The translations under genes and the position numbers were made by a program. From Roseobacter sp. (GTDB taxonomy: Bacteria > Pseudomonadota > Alphaproteobacteria > Rhodobacterales > Rhodobacteraceae), in contig DRFG01000064.1 of NCBI GenBank assembly GCA_011050655.1, positions 1 to 37,453 on the forward strand: 37,453 nucleotides of DNA. The letters run 5' to 3'. The notes under the pieces are model-generated. The model was not told the DNA's origin, searched no databases, and worked only from the letters and a program-made list of their open reading frames with translations. This document shows, one piece after another, positions 762 through 877 of the stretch; the stretch's first letter is position 1, and each line of letters starts with the position of its first letter.

Positions 762-848
762 ATGACACACGCCGATCATAATTCGACCCTGCCGCGTGGC
801 TGCGCGTCGTCCTTGCGTGCCAACCTACTGCTCCTAATCCGCCTCTGA
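762..848 (+). CDS. Putative leucine leader peptide MTHADHNSTLPRGCASSLRANLLLLIRL
   Basis: Short ORF not in the supplied track. CTA CTG CTC CTA ATC CGC CTC TGA near the end, immediately upstream of leuA. The stop codon lies in the left arm of a perfect inverted repeat. Confidence 0.7.
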   Translation: MTHADHNSTLPRGCASSLRANLLLLIRL

Positions 849-877
849 GCGTGCCATCCGGTGCGCCCGCTCAGAGG
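842..877 (+). promoter_or_regulatory. Candidate leuA attenuator hairpin
   Basis: CCTCTGAGCG (842-851) and CGCTCAGAGG (868-877) form a perfect 10-bp stem with a 16-nt loop. No clear U-tract follows. Confidence 0.55.

Follow-up and report, generated by a model that had tools for sequence, protein, structure and literature searches.

The window (the whole 37,453-nucleotide stretch analysed here) carries leuA, the gene for 2-isopropylmalate synthase, the first enzyme of leucine synthesis; its ATG lies at position 926. A gene for a MORN-repeat protein occupies positions 1-584 and ends about 180 nt before the leader of leuA. The interval between the two genes and its surroundings hold the following features.

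726-731, + strand: −35-like element TTCCCA (family consensus around TTTTCATTT), placed by its sequence and a T-rich conserved block
748-753, + strand: −10 element TATAAC, ending 9 nt ahead of the leader ATG, placed by its match to TATAAT
762-848, + strand: leader peptide ORF of 28 aa, MTHADHNSTLPRGCASSLRANLLLLIRL, with orthologous leaders in 104 Rhodobacteraceae genomes
825-836, + strand: run of four Leu codons, CTA CTG CTC CTA, the candidate sensor, marked by Leu conservation across the 104 leaders
828-841, + strand: 5′ strand of helix C, CTGCTCCTAATCCG, overlapping the Leu codons, from the free fold and covariation
842-851, + strand: 5′ arm of helix A, CCTCTGAGCG, holding the leader stop (846-848), from pairing and covariation
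860-866, + strand: 5′ strand of helix B, GGTGCGC, in the loop of helix A, pairing with 886-892
868-877, + strand: 3′ arm of helix A, CGCTCAGAGG, from pairing and covariation
886-892, + strand: 3′ strand of helix B, GCGCACC, pairing with 860-866
894-907, + strand: 3′ strand of helix C, CGGATTTACAGCAG, directly 5′ of the leuA Shine-Dalgarno (SD) region, from the free fold and covariation
910-916, + strand: likely leuA ribosome-binding site (CGAAAGA, a weak SD), placed by position
926-2494, + strand: leuA, the gene that would be regulated, above cut-off for NCBIfam NF002087 and TIGR00973, with Pfams HMGL-like and LeuA_dimer

An earlier note on this DNA had proposed a leucine attenuator here, from a 28-codon leader ORF at 762-848 ending NLLLLIRL* whose stop codon falls in the left arm of a perfect 10-bp inverted repeat (842-851/868-877); these coordinates and sequences are exact. 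The stem, which it put about 50 nt before leuA, ends 48 nt ahead of the ATG, and the U-run that it reported absent after the hairpin is indeed absent; nor is there a terminator-like site at the stem. The note missed the pairings B and C and the promoter that sets the predicted start of transcription at the leader AUG. The free fold of RNA 820-925 contains stem A plus a second stem, C, which joins the Leu codons to the segment preceding leuA, at −35.6 kcal/mol versus −23.1 +/- 3.0 for 200 shuffled sequences (z −4.1; 0/200 as good). This fold z-score together with the conservation described below rules out a chance ORF next to a chance hairpin. The element is a single copy in its genome, the only other match there being the same palindrome read on the reverse strand. 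Neither the window nor any of 20 related loci had a match to an Rfam family at gathering score. A match to Trp_leader lies below threshold elsewhere in this genome (contig 178, 1659-1765; 30.8 bits, cut-off 41) and is possibly a trp attenuator of the same organism.

We located LeuA in 195 of 199 Rhodobacteraceae genomes and read 112 upstream regions, with hardly any genus represented twice. The element, a leader with its stop in the stem, directly precedes leuA in 104 of these, with stem and spacing conserved. Searching with the leader peptide only was uninformative past three relatives, since the loci inspected beyond them were spurious. The leader codons at 822-848 are AAC CTA CTG CTC CTA ATC CGC CTC TGA, and Leu occurs at positions −7, −6, −5 and −4 from the stop in 85, 100, 85 and 104 of the 104 leaders. 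CTT and CTA make up 59% of the Leu codons of the run, versus 9% of those in leuA; the run thus consists of the synonyms that leuA avoids, conserved as codons. Conservation of the Leu codons and the stem across Rhodobacterales, along with compensatory changes in the stem, had been proposed as the check on the attenuator, and within Rhodobacteraceae all were found.

Promoter signals were compared among the 69 leaders that have one possible ATG. A T-rich conserved block lies at −36 to −29 from the ATG, the best match to TATAAT ends at −9 to −7 in 64 of the 69, and a pyrimidine (C or T) occupies position −1 in every one. From the −10 position and the pyrimidine at −1, we predict that transcription begins on the AUG or right beside it, which would make the mRNA leaderless. 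We regard a second promoter candidate in the window, TTGGCA-17-CATAAT at 754-782, as an accident of this genome, since most others have CATATC at this place and lack a matching −35 element. That hexamer covers leader codons 6-7 (777-782; CATAAT in the window itself); it is CATATC, encoding His-Ile, in 31 of the 69 leaders and close to it in most others. We sought a pairing partner for the conserved CATATC and found none.

The three helices differ in how far their covariation extends. Helix A is paired in 98.8% of cells (78 sequences), with double changes at three pairs; across the class, double changes occur at six of its 10 pairs and its covariation score was reached by none of 500 shuffles. 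These compensatory changes, seen at both family and class level, include the stop codon itself, where changes from TGA to TAG or TAA are matched in the opposite arm. Helix B, which forms either a pseudoknot with A or else an alternative hairpin, gives a partner-permutation z of 7.4 in Rhodobacteraceae and no signal (z −0.5) in 49 other alphaproteobacterial sequences, so we dropped it as a class-wide feature. Helix C consists of 11 pairs (828-841 with 894-907) around a 3x3 internal loop. Its z is 11.9 in Rhodobacteraceae (0/5000 permutations) and 5.3 in the 49 other sequences (0/5000), and five of eight aligned pairs have changed on both sides in an alignment that was not fitted to the structure. 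Partner permutation ignores relatedness, and the control was other segment pairs from the same genomes: five such pairs gave z values of 0.03, 0.43, 0.88, 1.37 and 2.48, low enough that relatedness alone does not explain the covariation of helix C.

The remaining eight of the 112 upstream regions might have been read as losses, but R1, a covariance model built from Rhodobacteraceae sequences, found the element in all of them, 431-457 nt before leuA and directly ahead of a gene that forms a pair with leuA. This gene is small and encodes a cupin-domain protein (Pfam Cupin_2 in the one copy examined); leuA starts within about 15 nt of its stop. In these cupin-first operons the cupin SD itself forms the 3′ strand of helix C; this strand ends 4 to 10 nt ahead of the ATG. 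In the leuA-first Rhodobacteraceae the same strand lies at about −32 to −19 of leuA, upstream of the SD.

What helix C closes was examined by computing accessibility, without pseudoknots, for native sequences and for sequences in which the Leu segment was swapped for that of another genome. In leuA-first genomes the swap raised the unpaired fraction of −30 to −18 from 0.36 to 0.47, about 10 replicate standard deviations. It gave no specific effect on −16 to −5, where the SD is unpaired at 0.63 natively and 0.61 swapped, and sequestration of the SD itself was rejected for these genomes. We likewise found no specific partner of the Leu run within −20 to +40 of leuA (z 0.9). Helix C here closes the region 5′ of the SD rather than the SD, so that it would have to hinder initiation from this neighbouring position. 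For the cupin-first operons, we assumed in the model that a stalled ribosome covers the Leu run, and this masking raised computed SD accessibility from 0.32 to 0.61; native versus swapped values, 0.32 and 0.43 (sd 0.065), differ in a way that is suggestive only. In the other alphaproteobacterial families, the native Leu segment modestly lowers SD accessibility (0.463 versus 0.498 swapped; replicate sd 0.014).

We conclude that the element is probably a leucine-sensing, ribosome-mediated attenuator acting mainly on the initiation of leuA translation. Conserved Leu codons, the stem and its compensatory changes support the earlier proposal of leucine attenuation by a Leu-rich leader. That proposal left Rho-linked and translational outputs open; the comparative evidence favours the translational one, since the pairing partner of the Leu codons adjoins the leuA SD or, in cupin-first operons, is the cupin SD. 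The direction and level of control, like leaderless transcription, are what we infer from the arrangement. Transcription would start at the leader AUG, and the leader ends in the run of uncommon Leu codons, its stop set in the 5′ arm of hairpin A, whose loop can pair downstream (B); the Leu run can pair with RNA just 5′ of the leuA ribosome-binding site (C). When leucine is plentiful, translation of the leader would be quick and the ribosomes would leave; A, B and C would then fold compactly at the start region, or across the SD in cupin-first operons, and initiation would fall. When Leu-tRNA is short, a ribosome would wait at the Leu codons, covering the base of A together with the 5′ strand of C; the start region would open and LeuA synthesis would rise, so that leucine shortage is the ON state. 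The Leu codons would thereby serve as sensor and closing strand at once, making a terminator unnecessary. Since a ribosome at the stop codon would cover almost the bases that a stalled one covers, it is in occupancy that the two states must differ.

The main rival is that the position of the leader ribosome instead decides termination of transcription before leuA, through Rho or a terminator lacking a U-run. Classical leu attenuators do act on transcription, and control at that level would regulate the cupin-leuA pair of the eight genomes as a unit; the cupin stop lies close enough to leuA, though, that translational coupling can also explain the pair. We consider termination unlikely: neither helix A nor helix C is followed by a U-run, the compact fold leaves Rho little unpaired RNA, and the partner of the Leu run moves with the ribosome-binding site of the first gene, be it leuA or the cupin gene.

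Beyond the family, weaker versions of the element stand ahead of leuA across Alphaproteobacteria. Elsewhere in the class, model R1 gave 12 weak matches, of which 10 immediately precede leuA genes of 59-63% identity. Of 75 leuA upstream regions read across the class, at least 49 have a hairpin whose 5′ arm contains the leader stop; the count is a lower bound, since a motif was used to find the Leu segment and diverged copies may have escaped it. The Leu run in these families is often only CTT CGA CTT, two Leu codons around the Arg codon CGA, which suggests a different or weaker sensing signal. A search of 299 genomes from the phylum with the class model, R2, gave matches in 55 alphaproteobacteria and weak ones in four other genomes (E 0.001-0.007); E-values of both models are rough, and sampling was one genome per genus or family. 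We inspected 40 R2 matches and found a LeuA relative downstream in 34, every one alphaproteobacterial. Three of the 34, in three genomes of one alphaproteobacterial family, precede a type-2 LeuA that shares about 60% identity with the mycobacterial enzyme and stands in place of the usual alphaproteobacterial LeuA. Two genomes with a leuA copy of the element have second, weak R2 matches adjoining no LeuA relative.

The folded element might also be a reinitiation device, bringing the leader stop beside the leuA start and raising expression with no sensing of leucine. Helix C does bring the leader's end close to the leuA start region, and reinitiation following leader peptides has been proposed from comparative evidence (PMC4833913). 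This reading explains neither the run of uncommon Leu codons nor why the strong matches that were checked occur only with leuA, and we regard it as very improbable. The sequence evidence for a leucine-controlled switch is drawn from more than 150 genomes, and the computation supports the existence of the element, its conservation, its codon bias and its pairings; it is not a product of chance.

This kind of element has been known since 2005, from Actinobacteria only, as the LEU element (Seliverstov et al. 2005, PMC1262725), which stands before leuA and has a leader with a Leu run, a pseudoknot, and a base stem formed by the Leu codons with the leuA SD. The alphaproteobacterial variant appears to be new; we found no earlier report of it in the open-access literature, although subscription journals may hold one. 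The likenesses are extensive. Both elements lie upstream of leuA with a Leu-run leader (here directly in 104 of 112 genomes and with a cupin gene between in eight), a hairpin whose loop pairs downstream, and a base stem made by the Leu codons; both have the strand order C5′-A5′-B5′-A3′-B3′-C3′, lack a terminator, and place the −10 box 7-8 nt before the leader start. The two helices in pseudoknot order 3′ of the Leu run, A and B, covary in Rhodobacteraceae, a pattern that does not distinguish joint formation. The differences are that the leader stop falls in the 5′ arm of A here and in the loop in Actinobacteria, that leaders here are about 28 codons long, that the LeuA is of another type and the phylum another, and that helix C ends upstream of the SD in leuA-first genomes; in cupin-first ones its 3′ strand is the SD itself.

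We examined 80 actinobacterial loci for the same features. Helix A was found in all, and B and C covary more weakly, at z 4.5 and 3.9, values only a little higher than the largest control z, 2.5, which comes from the other data set. In most of these loci the −10 motif ends 7-8 nt ahead of a candidate leader start. The leader stop is missing from its usual place in the loop in two actinobacterial LEU-like elements. Model R1 run on 42 actinobacterial loci gave 10 weak hits, eight of them on the LEU element, and near-identical CTCCTTAGC.GCC motifs occur in Rhodobacteraceae and in LEU elements, a likeness that shared constraints could also yield. Common descent of the two sets of elements is plausible on these comparisons. 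Tentatively, and with rather less than even confidence, we suggest that a single translational leucine switch, in which Leu codons close the downstream ribosome-binding site, is shared through descent or transfer between Alphaproteobacteria and Actinobacteria before two distantly related LeuA enzymes, and would be a phylum-crossing RNA missing from Rfam.

The 2005 authors favoured a protein partner for the LEU element, citing S. coelicolor mutants: leuA leader mutations reported, as cited in PMC1262725, to be inconsistent with classical attenuation. If a trans-acting protein likewise read the structured RNA here, translation of the leader would be incidental, and the conserved three-helix architecture would fit. 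Orthologues of the candidate protein, ML1624, are reported absent outside Actinobacteria (PMC1262725), yet the arrangement exists here, and the Leu codons are conserved as codons, with rare synonyms in use; together these favour the ribosome and make a protein reader quite improbable. The present data bear on the question, standing since 2005, of whether the LEU element is worked by ribosome or by protein, and the cupin-first operons offer a natural experiment in which the pairing follows the ribosome-binding site of the first gene. They would also give a specific account of how leucine controls leuA across a large bacterial class, for which we found no such element described in the open-access literature or Rfam.

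The classical leu operon leader (leuL, Rfam RF00512) encodes a leader peptide rich in Leu codons before leuA. The element here resembles it in having a Leu-rich leader before leuA, with ribosome position as the presumed signal, and differs in having no terminator/antiterminator pair and no match to Rfam; the Rho-independent terminator with U-run that marks a classical attenuator is not found at the stem. The leuA leader of S. lividans, LeuL1 (MRFGLLLLSCRGEGL), is reported to be leaderless and to have no terminator (PMC8079986). It shares these traits with the element here, where leaderlessness is predicted, and its LLLLSC recurs in many Rhodobacteraceae leaders as LLLLSCL; it is actinobacterial and presumably an instance of the LEU element. 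A ribosome-protected ORF likewise lies ahead of leuA in M. abscessus (PMC4974804). The mycobacterial polycysteine attenuators attributed to Canestrari et al. 2020 are leaderless short ORFs that sense one amino acid, as the leader here would, although that amino acid is cysteine. The element shares with ribosome-mediated amino-acid attenuators in general its leader codons for the amino acid that the pathway produces, conserved as codons.
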